From Candidatus Wolfebacteria bacterium (GTDB lineage: Bacteria > Patescibacteriota > Minisyncoccia > Phycocordibacterales > NVSU01), in assembly GCA_002401345.1 (NCBI GenBank), contig NVSU01000001.1, positions 17,078 to 55,316 of the forward strand: a DNA stretch of 38,239 nt, read 5' to 3'. How positions within the stretch are numbered: the first letter of the stretch is position 1; each line of letters begins with the position of its first letter. Under the pieces are notes generated by a model, which was not told the origin of the DNA, ran no database searches, and worked only from the letters and a program-made list of their open reading frames with translations. The position numbers and the translations under genes are program-made. Positions 11,871-19,916 of this stretch are shown here, piece after piece.

Positions 11871-12458
11871 TTAGAGATGAGTCTCTTTGAGAGATTTGTT
11901 GATGTGAGCGGCAATACTCTTTCGTGCAGGGTAAATTCGCTCGATAAGATTCTTTGTAAGCTCGAGGGTTGTAAGGGCCTCAATATTTTTAATATCACCA
12001 ATATATCCGAGATGATACATAATTCGGAGTACAGTTAAGAGTTCTACATTTTTTGCTTGATCATTGGTTAATAATGGATCTTGTAGGTAAAGAAAAGATT
12101 CTATAACACTTGCATATAGTAATTCATTTTTTTCTTCTCCCTGACAAAGACGCTCGAGTAGACGAGAAATATTTGCAATAACTTCTGTAGCGTATGTATT
12201 GTGCGATGAAGATACCAGTGGTTGGATTTTAGATGCAGTGGTCACTCTCCATACTTCCCTTCCACGAACAAAATCAATATTCGCATACGATAGGTCTTGC
12301 AAACTATATCGGAGTTTCGATTCAAGTTTTCTAATTCCCTGAGCTGTTGCTCGAATCACGCCGAGTTCCTTTGTAAACACAGTTAAAAAACGATCAGACT
12401 CTCGGGTATCTTTACTCGACAATACTATTCCCTCTGTATGAAATATTTTATGTGACAT
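11871..12458 (-). CDS. recO: DNA repair protein RecO
   Basis: RecO promotes annealing of SSB-coated DNA and loads RecA with RecR. The N-terminal OB-fold is clear: TEGIVLSSKDTRESDRFLTVFTKELG, then ATAQGIRKLESKLRYSLQDLSYANIDFV. The helical C-terminal domain (LLERLCQGEENELLY-like stretch) ends at residue 195, some 45 residues shorter than E. coli RecO, and lacks the CxxC zinc-binding cysteines found in many RecO proteins. It is the last gene of a minus-strand series after ileS, the SGNH hydrolase and the RBBP9-like hydrolase, starting 5 bases after the previous stop. Confidence 0.9.
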   Translation of the reverse strand: MSHKIFHTEGIVLSSKDTRESDRFLTVFTKELGVIRATAQGIRKLESKLRYSLQDLSYANIDFVRGREVWRVTTASKIQPLVSSSHNTYATEVIANISRLLERLCQGEEKNELLYASVIESFLYLQDPLLTNDQAKNVELLTVLRIMYHLGYIGDIKNIEALTTLELTKNLIERIYPARKSIAAHINKSLKETHL

Positions 12459-12463
12459 GATAA

Positions 12464-13039
12464 TTATAGTTGAGAAATTTCTAATATGCTTTCAAGGACA
12501 CTCGGTAATTCTGTAACTCCATCACCTTCTGTAAAGTGACCTTTATTGTGTTCAACAATAACTTTCGCATGAAGTTTTTTTTCAAACTTCTCTTTAGTTA
12601 TATCAAGGGGAACGTCTTCATCATTATCAGATAAGATTGTTATGAATTTATTTGATGTCGCACGTACCATCTCAAAGTTTATCGGTAACTGCAACCAAGG
12701 TTCGGTAACTTCTCTTTCCCTACCAATAACGACATCTGTTAAATCAAAATATCCCGCCACAAAAACTGCTCCACCTATTTTCTTATTGTTTTTTTGTAGA
12801 AAATGAATAATGGCTAAACATCCTATACTATGACCAACAAAATATGTCTCTTCATTGAGCACTGGAGTGACTTCCATTAGTGCAGAAATCCACTCATCAA
12901 AATTTGAAACCTCAGAATTGGGCATTACAGGTGAGATAACATCAAAATCACGATTATTAAGTTCGTTTGTGAGCCATGGAAACCAATGACTCTGTGGATC
13001 TCCTTCCCATCCATGAACCAGAATTACTCTTTTTTTCAT
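12464..13039 (-). CDS. RBBP9/YdeN-like serine hydrolase
   Basis: The 191-residue alpha/beta hydrolase begins VILVHGWEGDPQSHWFPWL, the typical RBBP9/YdeN (PF06821) N-terminus with its HGWxG oxyanion-site motif. The nucleophile elbow GHSIG follows in YFVGHSIGCLAIIHFL, the acid is probably Asp in ILSDNDEDVP, and the histidine is in NKGHFTEGDG. The members are small intracellular hydrolases of uncertain substrate. It sits between the SGNH hydrolase and recO in a closely packed series, so two esterase-like folds are next to each other; no shared substrate can be deduced. Confidence 0.88.
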   Translation of the reverse strand: MKKRVILVHGWEGDPQSHWFPWLTNELNNRDFDVISPVMPNSEVSNFDEWISALMEVTPVLNEETYFVGHSIGCLAIIHFLQKNNKKIGGAVFVAGYFDLTDVVIGREREVTEPWLQLPINFEMVRATSNKFITILSDNDEDVPLDITKEKFEKKLHAKVIVEHNKGHFTEGDGVTELPSVLESILEISQL

Positions 13040-13053
13040 ATACTATTTCTTAA

Positions 13054-13794
13054 TTAATAATCTGGATATTTTTTATTATTGTCTAATAAACCTTCTAAAA
13101 ACTTATCCGCATCAAAATTAATGTCGAAAACTTCTTTAAGTAAGATCTTTGCAACTATTGCATTTCCATATTTATTATAATGCACATAATCTATATCCCC
13201 GGGTTTCAATCGTAAACTCTCATTCCCCTCTGGCTCTATCAATGTGTAAGACTTTTCAATAGCGTCTCTTGGAAATAAGGCAAACAAATCAACAAATACA
13301 AAATTTTTATTATTAATAAAGCTTTTTGCTATCTTATTTTCATTTTTTATATGCTCCATCATTTTTATATTTTCTTCTGACTTCAAAGATGGTATATAAG
13401 TCGAGAAAACAACCTTTATAGAATTATTAAGAGATTGTTGTATAAGTTCTTTAATATTCTCAATTGTGGTTCTGCTATTCACACCAAAACGAACATCATT
13501 TTTACCGGCACTCAGAAATATAAGATATGGTTTCTTATCTAAGACAAGTTCTTGAAATCTATCCAACAGATCACCTGAAGTTGCACCATCAAGTCCTAAA
13601 TTTAAAGTGTGGAGATTCCACAATTTATTTATATCTTCAATATTATCTTCGAGTTCTGCTTTTAACACATATCTAATAATTTCTCCCCAATTTGGAAAGA
13701 TATTTTCAAAACTTGTGGTTGAAGGACCATAATAAATAATATCTGTTTGAATATTGTTTACTACACGATTTTTAATTTCATCAAAAAAGTTCAT
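13054..13794 (-). CDS. SGNH/GDSL-type esterase
   Basis: All four SGNH blocks are visible in this 246-residue protein: the serine in YYGPSTTSFEN, the glycine in TLNLGLDGATSGDLL, the asparagine in IFLSAGKNDVRFG and the terminal DIDYVHYNKYGN with the catalytic Asp-x-x-His. It lacks a signal peptide, so it is predicted cytoplasmic. Members deacylate lipids, sugars or peptides; the substrate is not evident. It begins 3 bases after the ileS stop and is probably translationally coupled to ileS. Confidence 0.85.
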   Translation of the reverse strand: MNFFDEIKNRVVNNIQTDIIYYGPSTTSFENIFPNWGEIIRYVLKAELEDNIEDINKLWNLHTLNLGLDGATSGDLLDRFQELVLDKKPYLIFLSAGKNDVRFGVNSRTTIENIKELIQQSLNNSIKVVFSTYIPSLKSEENIKMMEHIKNENKIAKSFINNKNFVFVDLFALFPRDAIEKSYTLIEPEGNESLRLKPGDIDYVHYNKYGNAIVAKILLKEVFDINFDADKFLEGLLDNNKKYPDY

Positions 13795-13797
13795 ACG

Positions 13798-16700
13798 TTA
13801 TTTCTTAATTGAGATTTTATATACGTGATCATCGATAGGTATTTCATATCCGTCTGAGACTGATCCATATGCAATATCTTTTGCTTGAACTGATTTCTTT
13901 AATTCCTCCTTATTAGTTTCAACGAGCTCTTTTCCTTTTTCGTCTACATCAACAGTAAGTACAATTACATCATTCGTATTAAGTCCTTCTTTCTTTCGTG
14001 CATCTTGAATTCCTCGAAGAAGCTCCCTAAAGTCACCCTCTTTTTTGAGCGCAGGAGTAATGGCAGTCACAAGTTGAACTTCCTCTTCAATGGTTGAGGA
14101 AAATTCTACTTCTTTTATATTCACCTCATCTTTTATGAGGTCTATATATTGGTCCGACAATGCAACACCCTTAACCACAAGCTGTTGAAGTGGCTGACGG
14201 ACCTTGATTCCCGCTTTCTGTCGAGCTTCAAGACCAAGTGACACTATTTCTCGCACTCGTCTCATGTGTGTGAGTACTTTATCTTCCTTATTCTTAGTGA
14301 GGAATGAAAATATTTTTCCTAATGCAGATGATCCTGTAGTCTGTGGCCATTTTTCAAGATGAACACTCTCGCTACACTCAGGACCTTTAACTCTTTGAAA
14401 TATAGCTTCTGAAATAAATGGAATAGTCGGAGCAATTGCCTTTGAGAATTCCTTCAGTACAAACTGAGTCACCATCAATGCTGATGCTTTATCCTTTTCA
14501 TCATCCCCTTTATACCTATCTCGTGACCGACGTATGTACCATGTTGAAAGATCATCTACAAAATCTTCTATGGGTCGAGAGGCCTTATCAAATTCATAAT
14601 TATCTAGACCCTTTTCTATTTCTTTAATAGTTTCATTGAGCCGAGCAAGAATCCATACATCAAGTATATTTTCACTCACAGTCATTTTCTCAGAGGACAC
14701 AGTATCTGCATACATTTCATAAAATGAGAGTACATTCCAAAGGCGATTCATTACTTTATTTAATACTTCTTGAATATTCTTCTCAGACAAACCTACCTCC
14801 TCTCCACGGACTGCAGGTGAATTCATTAAAAATAATCTCAATGCATCTGCACCATACTTATCTACAACAACTCTGAGATCCGGATAATTTTTGAGTCGCT
14901 TACTCATCTTACGACCATCTTCGGCTAGTATAAGTCCATTCACTACAACATTCTTAAATGCAGTATCATCAAAGAGTGCAGTCGAGAGCACAAGAAGATT
15001 ATAAAACCATCCACGTGTCTGATCTAATCCTTCTGCAATAAAGTCTGATGGAAATCGTTTATGAAATCTCTCTTTATTCTCAAAAGGATAATGAAGCGAT
15101 GCATAAGGCATGGAACCTGATTCAAACCAACAATCAAACACGGCGTCGATACGGTTCATTGTTCCCCCGCATGAGCACGAAAGATGCACATTATCAATAT
15201 ATGGTCTATGAAGATCTAACTCATAGTGTTGATCATGAGGTAATACTGCAAAAGGTAACTCTCTAAATTCTGAAGTACGAATAAAATCATCTCGTCCCTC
15301 TTTTATTTCAGCCGTCTGATCTTTATTGAGACCTTTACTTCCTGCTTCCATCATCCATACAGGATACTCGTGACAAATAATAAGAATATTCTTATCGTGC
15401 TCTTTTTCATTAAGTTCATAGAGAAAGTCCATCACACGCTTCTTTACATCAAGTAGATTCTCTCCTCCTTCTGGTCGTTTTGTGATTTTTTCTCTGGTAG
15501 ATGAAAAATGTGATCTGTATTCCTCAATATTTTTCATATTGAATACTCCTGTATCAATTTCTTTAATACGGTCATCGTATACAATATCATCAGATGAAAT
15601 ACCAAGTTGCTCTGCTACAATCTCGGCGGTTTGTTTTGCTCGTAAAAATGGTGAAGAAATAATTATATCTATTCCCCCATCGGGTGGATTGTTTTTAAGA
15701 CGCAGTGCAGATGCGTGGACTTCTTTTTTTCCCTCTTCGGTTAGAGAAGTTTGATTTTCAATTTTTGAACTTACAATTCCATCTCTATTGCTCTCTGCTC
15801 CACCATGTCGCATCACAGTATATGTATTATTTGATTGTGGAAGGTGTGCCTGTAGGTCTTCAATTCCTCCAATGACAGTTTGTGTCTCACATGAGTCACA
15901 TTGCCATACTGGAAATGGAGCACCCCAGAAACGTGACCTTGAAATTGCCCAGTCTCGTGCACCTTCAAGCCATTTTCCAAAGCGACCATCACGGATATGT
16001 TCAGGAATCCAATTTGTTTTCTTATTGTTTGCCAAAAGTTTATCAACGAGGTCTGTAACTCTAATAAACCACGAGCTCGAAGCATAATTCAAAAGCGGTG
16101 TCTCACACCTCCAGCAATGCGGGTAGGAGTGGACAATCTTTTTCTTTGCAAAGAGCTTATTCGAATGAGCGAGGAATTTAATAATCTCAATATCAGCAGA
16201 CTGTGGCTCATCCTTTGGTTTCACTGACTGACCAATAAAATCTTTCACTTCATCCTTGAATACTCCGCCTGTGGTGACGTGCTGAATAAACGGAAGCTTT
16301 TCCTTTTTCCCAAGTGTCATATCATCATCCCCAAATGCAGGAGCAATGTGCACTATTCCAGTACCATCCTCAACTGTTACAAAATCTGCCGCATATACCT
16401 TCCATCCATTTTCTCTATTCTCTAAGTCACTCTGAGTAGAATAGTAATCAAAAAGAGGTGTATATGACTTTCCTATGAGATCTTCAGTTTTTACTTCTCC
16501 AATAACTGTATACTCTTCTTCAATTACATTTAAAAGATTTTTCGCCAAAATAAAATTCTCATTACCTATTTTTATTTTTACGTATTCAAAATCCTTCCCT
16601 ATTGCGAGTGCGGCATTCCCTGGAAGTGTCCACGGAGTAGTCGTCCATGCAAGTAAAAAAGTTTTTGGTTCGCCTGCCCCGTTAGAAGTAGGTTCTTTTT

Positions 16701-17424
16701 GGGAACCGCTAGTTCTAATGGGGTCAGTCAATTCAAATTTAACAAACACTGAAATATCAGTGACATCTTTATATCCTTGGTTTACTTCAAAATTAGAAAG
16801 TGTCGTCTCACACCGCGGACATAAATGCATTGCCTTGTGTCCCTCATATACATACCCTTTATCAAATAATGTTTTAAATGCCCACCAAATAGATTCTGTA
16901 TAGGTCCAATCCATCGTCTTGTAATCGCGATCCATATCTACCCATCGTCCCACACGAGGAATAATTTCTTTCCATTCTTTTTCATACCGCAACACACTGT
17001 CTTGTGCAGCCTGATTAAATTTCTCTATTCCATATGTTTCAATATCTTTTTTGGTTTCCAGTCCAAGTTCCTCTTCAATAATATTTTCAATAGGAAGACC
17101 ATGGCAATCCCATCCCCAAATTCGCTCCACTTTATATCCTTTCATTGTCTTATATCGTGGAATCACATCCTTCATTGTCGTCGATAATATATGACCATGA
17201 TGAGGAAGGCCCGTTGCAAATGGAGGGCCATCATAAAAGACAAAATCACCCTTAGGTGAAGGTTTTTCTAGTGATTTTTCAAATATTTTATTTTCCTTCC
17301 AAAATTCAAGTATCTTCTCCTCTCGTAGGGCCACTTCAGACTTATCAGCCGTAGCTCTCGCCTCGCTAAAGCTCTGGCGAAGCGGGTTAGTGGAGGTGGG
17401 TTTCTCTTTATTTTCATTGCTCAT
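13798..17424 (-). CDS. ileS: Isoleucyl-tRNA synthetase (type 2) with an internal histidine-phosphatase domain
   Basis: At 1208 residues this is about 170-200 longer than usual. The Rossmann HIGH equivalent is HHGH (75-78) in GLPHHGHILSTTMKD, the editing domain shows AWTTTPWTLPGN, and KMSKR is at 839-843 followed by LKNYPD, all typical of the eukaryote-like, mupirocin-tolerant type 2. Between VIGGIEDLQAHLP and ELDLHRPYIDN, where the normal protein has only a short loop, residues about 534-733 form a complete histidine phosphatase: RHG (539-541), Arg595 in SSPFLRAKQTAEI, Glu622, PEGGE and His685 in IICHE. Two further in-frame oddities are palindromic segments near residues 10-22 and 234-250. 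The start lies only 18 bases after a terminator hairpin. It leads a series with hydrolases and recO. Confidence 0.95.
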   Translation of the reverse strand: MSNENKEKPTSTNPLRQSFSEARATADKSEVALREEKILEFWKENKIFEKSLEKPSPKGDFVFYDGPPFATGLPHHGHILSTTMKDVIPRYKTMKGYKVERIWGWDCHGLPIENIIEEELGLETKKDIETYGIEKFNQAAQDSVLRYEKEWKEIIPRVGRWVDMDRDYKTMDWTYTESIWWAFKTLFDKGYVYEGHKAMHLCPRCETTLSNFEVNQGYKDVTDISVFVKFELTDPIRTSGSQKEPTSNGAGEPKTFLLAWTTTPWTLPGNAALAIGKDFEYVKIKIGNENFILAKNLLNVIEEEYTVIGEVKTEDLIGKSYTPLFDYYSTQSDLENRENGWKVYAADFVTVEDGTGIVHIAPAFGDDDMTLGKKEKLPFIQHVTTGGVFKDEVKDFIGQSVKPKDEPQSADIEIIKFLAHSNKLFAKKKIVHSYPHCWRCETPLLNYASSSWFIRVTDLVDKLLANNKKTNWIPEHIRDGRFGKWLEGARDWAISRSRFWGAPFPVWQCDSCETQTVIGGIEDLQAHLPQSNNTYTVMRHGGAESNRDGIVSSKIENQTSLTEEGKKEVHASALRLKNNPPDGGIDIIISSPFLRAKQTAEIVAEQLGISSDDIVYDDRIKEIDTGVFNMKNIEEYRSHFSSTREKITKRPEGGENLLDVKKRVMDFLYELNEKEHDKNILIICHEYPVWMMEAGSKGLNKDQTAEIKEGRDDFIRTSEFRELPFAVLPHDQHYELDLHRPYIDNVHLSCSCGGTMNRIDAVFDCWFESGSMPYASLHYPFENKERFHKRFPSDFIAEGLDQTRGWFYNLLVLSTALFDDTAFKNVVVNGLILAEDGRKMSKRLKNYPDLRVVVDKYGADALRLFLMNSPAVRGEEVGLSEKNIQEVLNKVMNRLWNVLSFYEMYADTVSSEKMTVSENILDVWILARLNETIKEIEKGLDNYEFDKASRPIEDFVDDLSTWYIRRSRDRYKGDDEKDKASALMVTQFVLKEFSKAIAPTIPFISEAIFQRVKGPECSESVHLEKWPQTTGSSALGKIFSFLTKNKEDKVLTHMRRVREIVSLGLEARQKAGIKVRQPLQQLVVKGVALSDQYIDLIKDEVNIKEVEFSSTIEEEVQLVTAITPALKKEGDFRELLRGIQDARKKEGLNTNDVIVLTVDVDEKGKELVETNKEELKKSVQAKDIAYGSVSDGYEIPIDDHVYKISIKK
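15226..15825 (-). other. Histidine-phosphatase (phosphoglycerate-mutase-like) domain inserted in IleRS
   Basis: Residues about 534-733 of the ileS product. The domain has the RHG triad with His540 as phospho-acceptor, Arg539, Arg595, Glu622 as acid and the second His685, thus every residue expected of an active branch-1 member. The flanks resume the normal IleRS sequence on both sides, so this is a clean insertion in the connective region before the KMSKS half. Reading frame is continuous through both junctions. Confidence 0.9.
16677..16723 (-). repeat. Short palindromic element in frame inside ileS
   Basis: CCCCGTTAGAAGTAGGTTC (16677-16695) faces GGAACC...TTCTAATGGGG (16702-16723). On the coding strand it reads DPIRTSGSQKEPTSNGAG, extra residues between FVKFEL and the TFLLAWTTTPWTLP strand. 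Its ends resemble the CCCGTTAGA/TCTAACGGG termini of the leader elements at 20337, 27942 and 32520. Confidence 0.65.
17357..17390 (-). repeat. Possible second palindromic segment at the N-terminus of IleRS
   Basis: CTCGCC and GGCGAAG pair imperfectly around CTAAAGCTCT; on the coding strand this gives TNPLRQSFSEARATA, a polar extension ahead of the conserved IleRS start. The NPLR phrase resembles the NPVR of the leader elements. The stem is short, so this is tentative. Confidence 0.35.
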
Positions 17425-17490: not shown

Positions 17491-18078
17491 TTACGCAGCG
17501 GCCTTAGTTTCTGATTTCATTTTTTCTTTTGCGCTAGCTATAGATCTATCTTTAATATCTTTAATTTCTTTTAAATCCTTTATTACGTCCTCTAAATCAA
17601 TAGGTTCAACATTTGTAGCCAAAAAATCTTGTTCGAACTTATCTACAGTTTCTTTATATTTTTGTAAATCACGAATCTGAGTCGGATCATCTTGTGCACG
17701 ATCAAGTGTCATACTAGGAGCCATTTTTTCTGTAATTTTCTCATCTTCGTCTTTGGGTTCTGAAACCAAACCAGATTCTTGCAAAATTCTCCCCAATGCA
17801 AAATCATACTCATAATACATGTGGTCATATTTTTCAAAATTCCCAATACCAATTGTATTATAAAGTTTACGTCTCCATTCAGGTAATTCGTCATATTCTT
17901 TAGTTAAACCTGTTTCCTTCACTTTTTTTATGACTGCATCTCGTGGAGAAGTACCCAACTCTCGAGATAATTCAATAACCTCTCGAAGTGTTTTTATTCG
18001 TTCTGCAGATAATTCTACAGAATTTTCAGTTTCAGTTTCTGGTGTTTTTTCTACACGTGGTCCTTGTTCCATATTCAT
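17491..18078 (-). CDS. Hypothetical charged helical protein
   Basis: The 195-residue protein is highly charged and almost wholly helical, with no hydrophobic segment. The N-terminus is low-complexity (TPETETENSVELSAER), the core has ELPEWRRKLYNTIGIGNFEKYDHMYYEYDFALGRIL, and the C-terminus is Lys/Asp/Glu-rich with possible coiled coil (IEDVIKDLKEIKDIKDRS-like). No family recognised. It has its own probable promoter and is followed by a terminator before ileS. An alternative start is the second Met, two codons in. Confidence 0.6.
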   Translation of the reverse strand: MNMEQGPRVEKTPETETENSVELSAERIKTLREVIELSRELGTSPRDAVIKKVKETGLTKEYDELPEWRRKLYNTIGIGNFEKYDHMYYEYDFALGRILQESGLVSEPKDEDEKITEKMAPSMTLDRAQDDPTQIRDLQKYKETVDKFEQDFLATNVEPIDLEDVIKDLKEIKDIKDRSIASAKEKMKSETKAAA

Positions 18079-18188: not shown

Positions 18189-19916
18189 CTACATTTTTTC
18201 AGGAGTTTTTATTCCAAGAAGATTAAGGCCATTTTTCATCACCACAGAAAATGCCTTTGTAAGTGCGACTTTATATGGAGCTTCTGGAGAATCATCAACA
18301 ATAGTGACGTGTGCATATAGCGTATTAAATTTTTGTGCGAGTTCCAGAAGATAGTTCACTATGCCCTGCGGTGCATAGTCTTCAAGTGCACGAGCTACAA
18401 TTTCTGGAAATCGATAAAGATATTGTTCTACTGTATGCACATATTCATCATCGATTATATTTTTCGTATCGGATGATATATTTTGCTCTTTCGCCTTTTG
18501 AAGGAGTGAGAGTGCACGCGTGTAGCTGTATTGTAAATATGGACCTGAGTCCCCTTCAAATGAAAGTGCATGTGATATATCAAATACAATATTTTTACCA
18601 GGCTGTTGTTTTAGAATTGAAAACTTTGCAGCTCCCACTGCAACATATTCAGCAATCATATCTTTCTCTTCCTCAGTAAAATCACGATCACTCTCATTCA
18701 TTTTCTTAAACACTTCTTTTTCTAATTCATCAATAAATGATTCTGCAACAATAACTTTTCCTTTTCTTGATGCCATTTTCTTTCCATCGGGACCAAGCAT
18801 CATTCCATGAGAGATGTGCTTTGTTTTCTCAGAAATATTTTTATCAATAAATTCAAATACTTTTAGTAATACATGAAAGTAATCTGCCTGCTCATGAGCT
18901 GTCACAACAATTGATTCATCTAGGTCTGGCTCTATAGCAAATTTGTTTCTATTATTACCAAGTTCCTTTGTTTCATATGTTGGCAGTCCAAGCGATGTAA
19001 TAAATACTCGAGTATGTAATCCATGCTCTTCTCCCTTAAATATTACTGCACCTTCAGATTTTTCAAATACTCCTTTCTTCAAGTATTCATCTACGATATT
19101 CATTCCCTCTTTAGCAGATAACCCTTCGAAGAAATAATAATCAAATTTAGTGCCTAGCTTCTTATATATCTCTTCAAAATGATCCAAACTCCATTGGAGT
19201 CCCTTTTTATATAGTTGATTAATTTCATCACCTGCATTGTTGGCATATATCTTTTTATTGATCTCATCAATTTCTTTTTTCACATTGTCGTTTTCCTTGT
19301 ACGAGGCCGCCCCTAGAACGTACGCGGCACCTAAATATTTTGATTTTATAGAAAGGTCATCTGAATCTTTTGGCAATGTGCTCTTGGAATTCAACATCGC
19401 CCATACTGCCTTGGCAACATGCTGTCCAACATCTCCTTGATAATTTGCTCGCTTCACATCGGCACCAGAGAATTCTATTATTCTCGAAATAGACTCACCG
19501 ATAGTATTGCTCATCAAATGACCAATGTGGAATTGTTTAAATGGATTAGGTTGCGTATATTCAACCATAACTTTTTTCCCTTTCAGAGTATCTGATGCAC
19601 CGTATGAATCTTCTTTATCTAAAATAGTTTCAATTGTTGAATTTAAAAATTTATTCGTAAGAGAAAAGTTTATGAATCCTGGAGCTGCAATAGCAATGTC
19701 CTTAACTTCTTCTGGTTGATGATCTTCAATATGTTTTTTTATCGCTTCTGCAAGATCCTGAGGTTTCATCTTCAACTCCTTTGCATACATAAGCGCAGCA
19801 TTTGTCGCATAATCGCCATGAGACAATTCTGTTGGGTGCTCTAAAATCGCCTTGGGTTCTTTAATCCCAAGATTTTGAAGTGCATCATGTATTAAGTTTT
19901 CTAATTTTTCTCTCAT
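18189..19916 (-). CDS. argS: Arginyl-tRNA synthetase
   Basis: The 575-residue class I enzyme charges tRNA-Arg. The N-terminal Add-1 domain contains the LSHGDYATNAALMYAKELK stretch, and the HIGH motif is FHIGH in NPFKQFHIGHLMSN. The KMSKS equivalent is DGKKMASRKGKV, the relaxed form common in ArgRS. The C-terminal anticodon-binding DALR domain contains SYTRALSLLQKA and ends with LNLLGIKTPEKM, close to the universal ArgRS end. The ATG overlaps the dut stop (TAATG), so the two are translationally coupled. Confidence 0.97.
   Translation of the reverse strand: MREKLENLIHDALQNLGIKEPKAILEHPTELSHGDYATNAALMYAKELKMKPQDLAEAIKKHIEDHQPEEVKDIAIAAPGFINFSLTNKFLNSTIETILDKEDSYGASDTLKGKKVMVEYTQPNPFKQFHIGHLMSNTIGESISRIIEFSGADVKRANYQGDVGQHVAKAVWAMLNSKSTLPKDSDDLSIKSKYLGAAYVLGAASYKENDNVKKEIDEINKKIYANNAGDEINQLYKKGLQWSLDHFEEIYKKLGTKFDYYFFEGLSAKEGMNIVDEYLKKGVFEKSEGAVIFKGEEHGLHTRVFITSLGLPTYETKELGNNRNKFAIEPDLDESIVVTAHEQADYFHVLLKVFEFIDKNISEKTKHISHGMMLGPDGKKMASRKGKVIVAESFIDELEKEVFKKMNESDRDFTEEEKDMIAEYVAVGAAKFSILKQQPGKNIVFDISHALSFEGDSGPYLQYSYTRALSLLQKAKEQNISSDTKNIIDDEYVHTVEQYLYRFPEIVARALEDYAPQGIVNYLLELAQKFNTLYAHVTIVDDSPEAPYKVALTKAFSVVMKNGLNLLGIKTPEKM

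Follow-up and report, generated by a model that had tools for sequence, protein, structure and literature searches.

Gene Content of the ileS Locus

The window, that is, the whole analysed stretch of 38,239 nucleotides from a Candidatus Wolfebacteria bacterium (Patescibacteriota), carries the gene run argS - ileS - recO. Here ileS codes a type 2 isoleucyl-tRNA synthetase (IleRS) with an embedded histidine phosphatase (HP) domain, hereafter IleRS-HP. Two small hydrolase genes lie between ileS and recO (Table 1). One of them belongs to the RBBP9-like family, whose members also adjoin ileS at three other loci (L111, L119, and L250) and are nested in the LeuRS and ValRS of relatives. A 195-aa open reading frame between argS and ileS (window 17491-18078, minus strand) had no Pfam or NCBIfam match.

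Table 1. Features of the IleRS-HP locus and of related synthetase genes. Positions refer to the window unless another locus (L) is named.
Feature	Position	Strand	Basis or remark
recO, end of the conserved argS-ileS-recO run	11871..12458	-	Pfam, NCBIfam
RBBP9-like serine hydrolase gene (PF06821), same tight operon, between ileS and recO	12464..13039	-	Pfam
SGNH/GDSL hydrolase gene, 3 bases downstream of ileS	13054..13794	-	PF13472, 4.4e-12
IleRS-HP fusion frame, 1208 aa	13798..17424	-	Frame, Pfam/NCBIfam profiles, AlphaFold2, structure matches
C-terminal portion of IleRS (aa 734-1208): CP3 remainder, the other Rossmann half bearing KMSKR, the domain that binds the anticodon, DUF5915, stop	13798..15225	-	Translation, Pfam
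Second zinc-knuckle cysteine pair of the CP3 ribbon, C750/C752	15169..15177	-	Sequence; Cys in 47/55 IleRS-HP
Embedded branch-1 HP domain, aa 533-733	15226..15828	-	Pfam, custom HP profile, AlphaFold2, structure matches
His685 (second pocket histidine)	15370..15372	-	75/75 IleRS-HP
Glu622 (general acid)	15559..15561	-	69 Glu, 6 Asp of 75 IleRS-HP
Arg595 (phosphate pocket)	15640..15642	-	75/75 IleRS-HP
RHG motif, aa 539-541 (His540 nucleophile)	15802..15810	-	R and H in 75/75 IleRS-HP
N-terminal portion of IleRS (aa 1-526): Rossmann fold, first half, bearing HHGH; CP1 domain for editing, in which APAFGDDD is retained; CP2; CP3 start	15847..17424	-	Translation, Pfam
First zinc-knuckle cysteine pair of the CP3 ribbon, C509/C512	15889..15900	-	Sequence; column 509 Cys in 48/55 IleRS-HP
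argS, upstream of ileS as in most relatives	18189..19916	-	Pfam, NCBIfam
ValRS with embedded HP, window's own genome	L001:46-2871, contig C3	+	Site equivalent to that in IleRS
ValRS, 1277 aa: HAD in editing-domain region, RBBP9-like and HP in CP3 region	L063:550-4380	+	Pfam
IleRS, 1196 aa, without HP: NUDIX in CP1 region	L252:1193-4780	+	Pfam
LeuRS with weak nucleotidyltransferase-like match (PF10706, PF14907) in insert near aa 430-520	L258:1553-4579	+	Pfam

Synthetase Body and Position of the Insert

The fusion is translated as one continuous frame with no internal stops, and its GC content over the insert (36-40%) shows no break. The product matched tRNA-synt_1 of Pfam (8.8e-136) and scored 878.6 bits against the NCBIfam ileS model (TIGR00392; cut-off 621.4), which places it in this family. 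Sequences of solved type 2 structures scored about 685-713 bits against it, as opposed to less than 300 bits for type 1, so type 2 is closer. The HHGH (HIGH-type) and KMSKR motifs and the CP1 editing domain GTGIVHIAPAFGDDD are all present.

The AlphaFold2 model (aa 29-1160) had a mean pLDDT of 90.5 and a pTM of 0.84, and the solved structures closest to the modelled synthetase body were yeast IleRS (Z 46.5) and Priestia IleRS2 (Z 44.8). With IleRS2 in general (PDB 8c8u, 7d5c, 1ile; Z 40.8-46.5) the fusion shares all synthetase domains, both signature motifs, the CP1 editing Asp region, and the C-terminal DUF5915. It differs by about 200 additional residues in CP3 that form a full phosphatase; at this site the linker of unfused IleRS, where it could be measured, is an ordinary one of about 47-73 aa. 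The gene is predicted to code a working type 2 IleRS.

The insert is flanked by the cysteine pairs C509/C512 and C750/C752 and occupies a surface loop within the zinc ribbon of the CP3 connective peptide, as placed by published IleRS domain boundaries (PMC12077802). The initial annotation had set the junctions between VIGGIEDLQ and ELDLHRPYID, in agreement with the translation. It had also named a discontinuous frame as a finding that would speak against it; the frame is unbroken, and the same fusion recurs in many independent genomes, so an assembly artefact is rejected. The structure prediction that it had proposed returned both folds intact, with a pLDDT of 96.1 for the HP domain modelled alone. 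That this architecture is real is nearly certain.

Fold and Catalytic Residues of the Embedded Phosphatase

The domain boundaries were taken from the alignment to an HP profile built in this analysis, and they coincide with the earlier estimate of 15226-15825 up to the last three bases. The His_Phos_1 profile (PF00300) matched aa 537-700 with an E-value of 1.1e-26 and 94.1 bits, above its cut-off of 21.7, which assigns the domain to the superfamily. Against phosphoserine phosphatase 4ij6 the model gave Z 23.2 over 184 residues at 2.3 A, in line with the HP fold; further structural matches were GpgP, PhoE, and a phosphatase of the riboflavin pathway.

Catalysis in the HP superfamily runs through a phosphohistidine, here at His540. 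All residues expected of a branch-1 member (R539, H540, R595, E622, and H685) are present, just as the initial annotation had read and numbered them. It had named loss of these residues in relatives as an outcome that would speak against its reading. The opposite was found: Arg539, His540, Arg595, and His685 are invariant in 75/75 IleRS-HP, and the same Arg-His-Arg-His quartet is invariant in 7/7 second copies of tandem domains, 8/8 HP domains embedded in ValRS (ValRS-HP), and six free copies near ileS. A decayed catalytic site is therefore rejected, and because its catalytic residues are conserved the embedded domain is very likely an active phosphatase.

The same conservation bears on the proposal that the domain is a structural spacer whose fold stabilizes CP3 without catalysis. 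Its location in a structural zinc ribbon and the loss of CP3 cysteines in a few fused sequences would suit such a role. However, the quartet is fully invariant over 90 embedded domains, and an inert spacer would not keep catalytic residues invariant, so we regard this proposal as highly improbable.

To which phosphatases is the domain nearest? The metal-independent phosphoserine phosphatase PspA (PDB 4ij5/4ij6) and its PhoE, CobC, and GpgP relatives have the same fold (Z about 20-23), the catalytic quartet, and a similarly compact size without the PGM insertions, although these enzymes are free-standing and 20-26% identical to the embedded domain. None of the specific NCBIfam cut-offs tried was reached, whether for PspA (NF045917; 62.4 vs. 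350 bits), the 2,3-BPG-dependent phosphoglycerate mutase (NF038349; 84 vs. 225 bits), or the phosphohistidine phosphatase SixA (TIGR00249; 38.7 vs. 74.5 bits). The bifunctional RNase H/acid phosphatase (NF005567) likewise joins an HP domain to an RNA-related enzyme. There, however, the fusion is terminal and not nested inside a synthetase core, and its cut-off was not reached here either (73 vs. 326 bits).

Distribution of the Fusion

A survey of IleRS architectures in Patescibacteria had been suggested together with the first reading of the locus, and it revealed a widespread fusion. In the order to which the window belongs, the profile scan detected PF00300 inside a long frame in 38/41 genomes; the long frames that we fetched were IleRS, a few of them incomplete where a contig ended or the assembly had a gap. 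The embedded copy is the sole PF00300 match in 15 of these 41 genomes. At the level of the class (112 genomes sampled, 108 with an IleRS match), 74/108 are fused, as judged by coinciding HP and ileS matches, about 30 lack the fusion, and contig ends truncate a few.

Across the wider phylum fusions are a minority, yet they occur in several families. Among the best 80 IleRS loci of the named genome collection, retrieved with the full-length alignment as query, the insert was found only in records of Patescibacteria type, including Yanofskybacteria, Paceibacterota, and Peregrinibacteria. The other phyla in this sample, which is not a census, have an ordinary linker at the site where it could be measured. 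Since the insert is absent from about 30% of the class and, outside the class, from most of the phylum, it is dispensable for IleRS.

These counts also touch on the idea that the embedded domain stands in for a phosphoglycerate mutase that glycolysis would otherwise lack. None of the 5 sampled genomes of the order, the window's own included, had a PF01676 (iPGM/aPGM) match, as this idea would predict. On the other hand, PF01676 is present in 59/74 fused genomes of the class, a rate similar to that in the unfused ones, and the domain stays at the 84 bits given above for the nearest dPGM model and is structurally closest to phosphatases. We consider such a role very improbable for the domain, and as a general mutase of the class it is unsupported by co-occurrence. 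Over the whole class sample PF01676 was present in 89/112 genomes, versus 0/5 of those sampled in the order.

Related Fusions, Free-Standing Copies, and Evolution of the Insert

The genome of the window has a second fusion, a ValRS of 941 aa in which HP sits at the equivalent site and replaces the zinc ribbon. Further ValRS-HP were detected in L043, L045, L046, and L049, while the ValRS of L074 carries two HP domains. Two tandem HP domains are also present in IleRS of Peregrinibacteria type (L064-L069, L131). Elsewhere in the phylum HP is joined to a 2-hydroxyacid dehydrogenase (L060) or stands N-terminal to pyruvate kinase (L062). It is also fused to a VTT membrane domain in L057; L058 and L059 look alike, L057 being the one that was scanned.

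A more direct coupling to aminoacylation could be imagined from such data. HP would then act on AMP, PPi, or a phosphorylated amino-acid analogue, formed as a product or by-product when the synthetase activates or edits, or it would take a phosphate off the bound tRNA. The insert site shared by the two paralogues IleRS and ValRS, the tandem copies, and the close match to phosphoserine phosphatase 4ij6 are consistent with it. However, LeuRS also edits and was never found with HP in this analysis. The soluble pyrophosphatase PF00719 occurs at similar rates in fused (about 14/74) and unfused (about 7/30) genomes, which gives no sign that HP replaces this enzyme; HP as its stand-in was rejected for lack of association. 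Altogether we judge direct coupling to be improbable.

Where the IleRS has no insert, HP may persist as a separate gene. In L103-L106 the space between argS and ileS holds a free HP gene in the same orientation. Its overlap with ileS is 4 bases in L103 and L104 and 7 bases in L106, and in L105 a 4-base gap separates the two. In L107 and L108 it is found 1-2 kb upstream of ileS.

In our trees, which rest on quick searches, free HPs near ileS group with IleRS-HP. A single clade of IleRS-HP and the neighbouring free HP genes was not rejected (p 0.81); the corresponding values were 0.49 for ValRS-HP and 0.28 for all together, so that all embedded HPs may or may not share one origin. On the tree of the IleRS body, with the insert removed, the fused label changes about 12 times, at least nine of these changes being forced by well supported branches; the partner of L106 on the tree, like that of L108, is a fused sequence. 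This pattern would be explained by repeated fission or refusion of one HP subfamily, in either direction, or by transfer of ileS.

Other Hydrolases in Editing Synthetases

HP is not the only enzyme inserted in these synthetases. In the class, LeuRS inserts include NUDIX, HAM1/ITPase, HAD, and RBBP9-like domains (L244, L245, L247, L254, L256, L260, L264, L265, L266, L267, and L268), and several of these LeuRS have two or more; L244 has in addition a weak ASCH match. One ValRS of the class bears an RBBP9-like domain at the HP site, and inserts of other composition were seen in single IleRS, ValRS, and LeuRS (Table 1). About 24/107 LeuRS are enlarged as judged by frame length, a part of which were scanned for domains. 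The insert of the L257 LeuRS had no Pfam identification. The L259 LeuRS is of similar length, its insert being judged by length alone. As a control, MetRS had no insert or enlargement in 109 genomes (frames of at most 584 aa). In many ValRS of the class the protein has only about 700-760 aa and the profile match stops near position 715 of 863, so that they apparently lack the C-terminal arm.

The variety of these inserts (phosphatase, NUDIX, ITPase, HAD, and esterase-like) would also fit a plain uptake of domains by tolerant loops that has nothing to do with aminoacylation. Where genomes are streamlined, a small hydrolase gene from next door may have been fused into such a loop and kept its own unrelated job, while IleRS serves as a carrier that guarantees expression. 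Such neutral capture is favoured by the diversity of the hydrolases, which occupy several loops in LeuRS, ValRS, and IleRS, by the occurrence of HP as a separate gene in the same operon position, and by the roughly 12 switches of the fused state. Nevertheless, inserts were limited to the Ile, Leu, and Val enzymes in the PF00300 and PF06821 scans, with none in MetRS; the same CP3 site recurs in IleRS and ValRS; and the free copy remains beside ileS though any location would be possible. We find neutral capture rather unlikely.

Possible Role of the Embedded Phosphatase

The reading that we prefer, and to which we give about an even chance, is that HP is an active small-molecule phosphatase tethered to IleRS, as one instance of a wider uptake of house-cleaning hydrolases by the branched-chain editing synthetases. 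Arguments for it are the unbroken frame, both intact folds, the invariant residues, the wide conservation, the linkage of the free form to ileS, the ValRS-HP of the same genome, and the other hydrolase inserts in LeuRS, ValRS, and one IleRS with none in MetRS. The chemical variety of the inserts and the many genomes that do without HP in IleRS count against it. According to this tethered-phosphatase model, the CP3 zinc-ribbon loop of a type 2 IleRS holds a complete HP of the small-substrate PspA/PhoE/CobC kind, predicted to be catalytically competent. His540 would take the phosphate; Glu622 would then donate a proton, and water would release the phosphate. The substrate is probably a small phosphomonoester, because the domain is compact and nearest to phosphatases of this type.

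HP would be produced together with IleRS, and the tether may serve house-cleaning near the synthetase, a role that we infer with moderate confidence. The initial annotation had found HP in IleRS, which stands, and had offered as guesses the hydrolysis of a phosphorylated by-product or nucleotide and the removal of a phosphate from tRNA or from an adenylate-like inhibitor; it had overlooked ValRS-HP, the tandem and free copies, and the NUDIX, HAM1, HAD, and RBBP9-like inserts. Taken together, these point to general house-cleaning and not to one IleRS-specific reaction. IleRS-HP may then be the most stable case of a wider habit of Patescibacteria, in which the Ile, Val, and Leu editing synthetases capture house-cleaning hydrolases in permissive loops.

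A broader and more tentative possibility is that IleRS, ValRS, and LeuRS of Patescibacteria act as hubs that carry HP, NUDIX, HAM1/ITPase, HAD, and RBBP9-like esterase domains. Such hubs might clear away reactive by-products and damaged nucleotides where aminoacylation takes place, as an undescribed layer of quality control besides CP1 editing. For the RBBP9-like partners one lead comes by analogy across families: homocysteine thiolactone is hydrolysed efficiently by BPHL, an alpha/beta hydrolase, and thiolactones of this kind are generated when synthetases edit their errors (PMC4198189). By this analogy the RBBP9-like partners might hydrolyse aminoacyl esters or thiolactones.

Synthetases with extra catalytic domains are already known. 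An example is the NCBIfam model ileS_w_GNAT (NF040702), another IleRS with an extra enzymatic domain; there, however, the domain is an N-acetyltransferase and not a phosphatase, and IleRS-HP scored far under the cut-off (337 vs. 1999 bits). We found no description of HP in IleRS or ValRS, or of NUDIX in LeuRS, in the open-access literature, subscription papers and preprints being largely outside our coverage. The IleRS-HP architecture is conserved and, within that coverage, apparently undescribed.

In the literature covered, there seems to be no report of an essential synthetase whose catalytic-core region houses a complete housekeeping phosphatase with its active site intact across most of a bacterial class. 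If the tethering is functional, translation and clean-up chemistry would be linked in bacteria that are among the smallest and most reduced. Even if the domain was captured neutrally, the Ile, Val, and Leu synthetases present a case of recurrent, site-specific enzyme nesting, which bears on genome annotation and on the origin of multifunctional enzymes.
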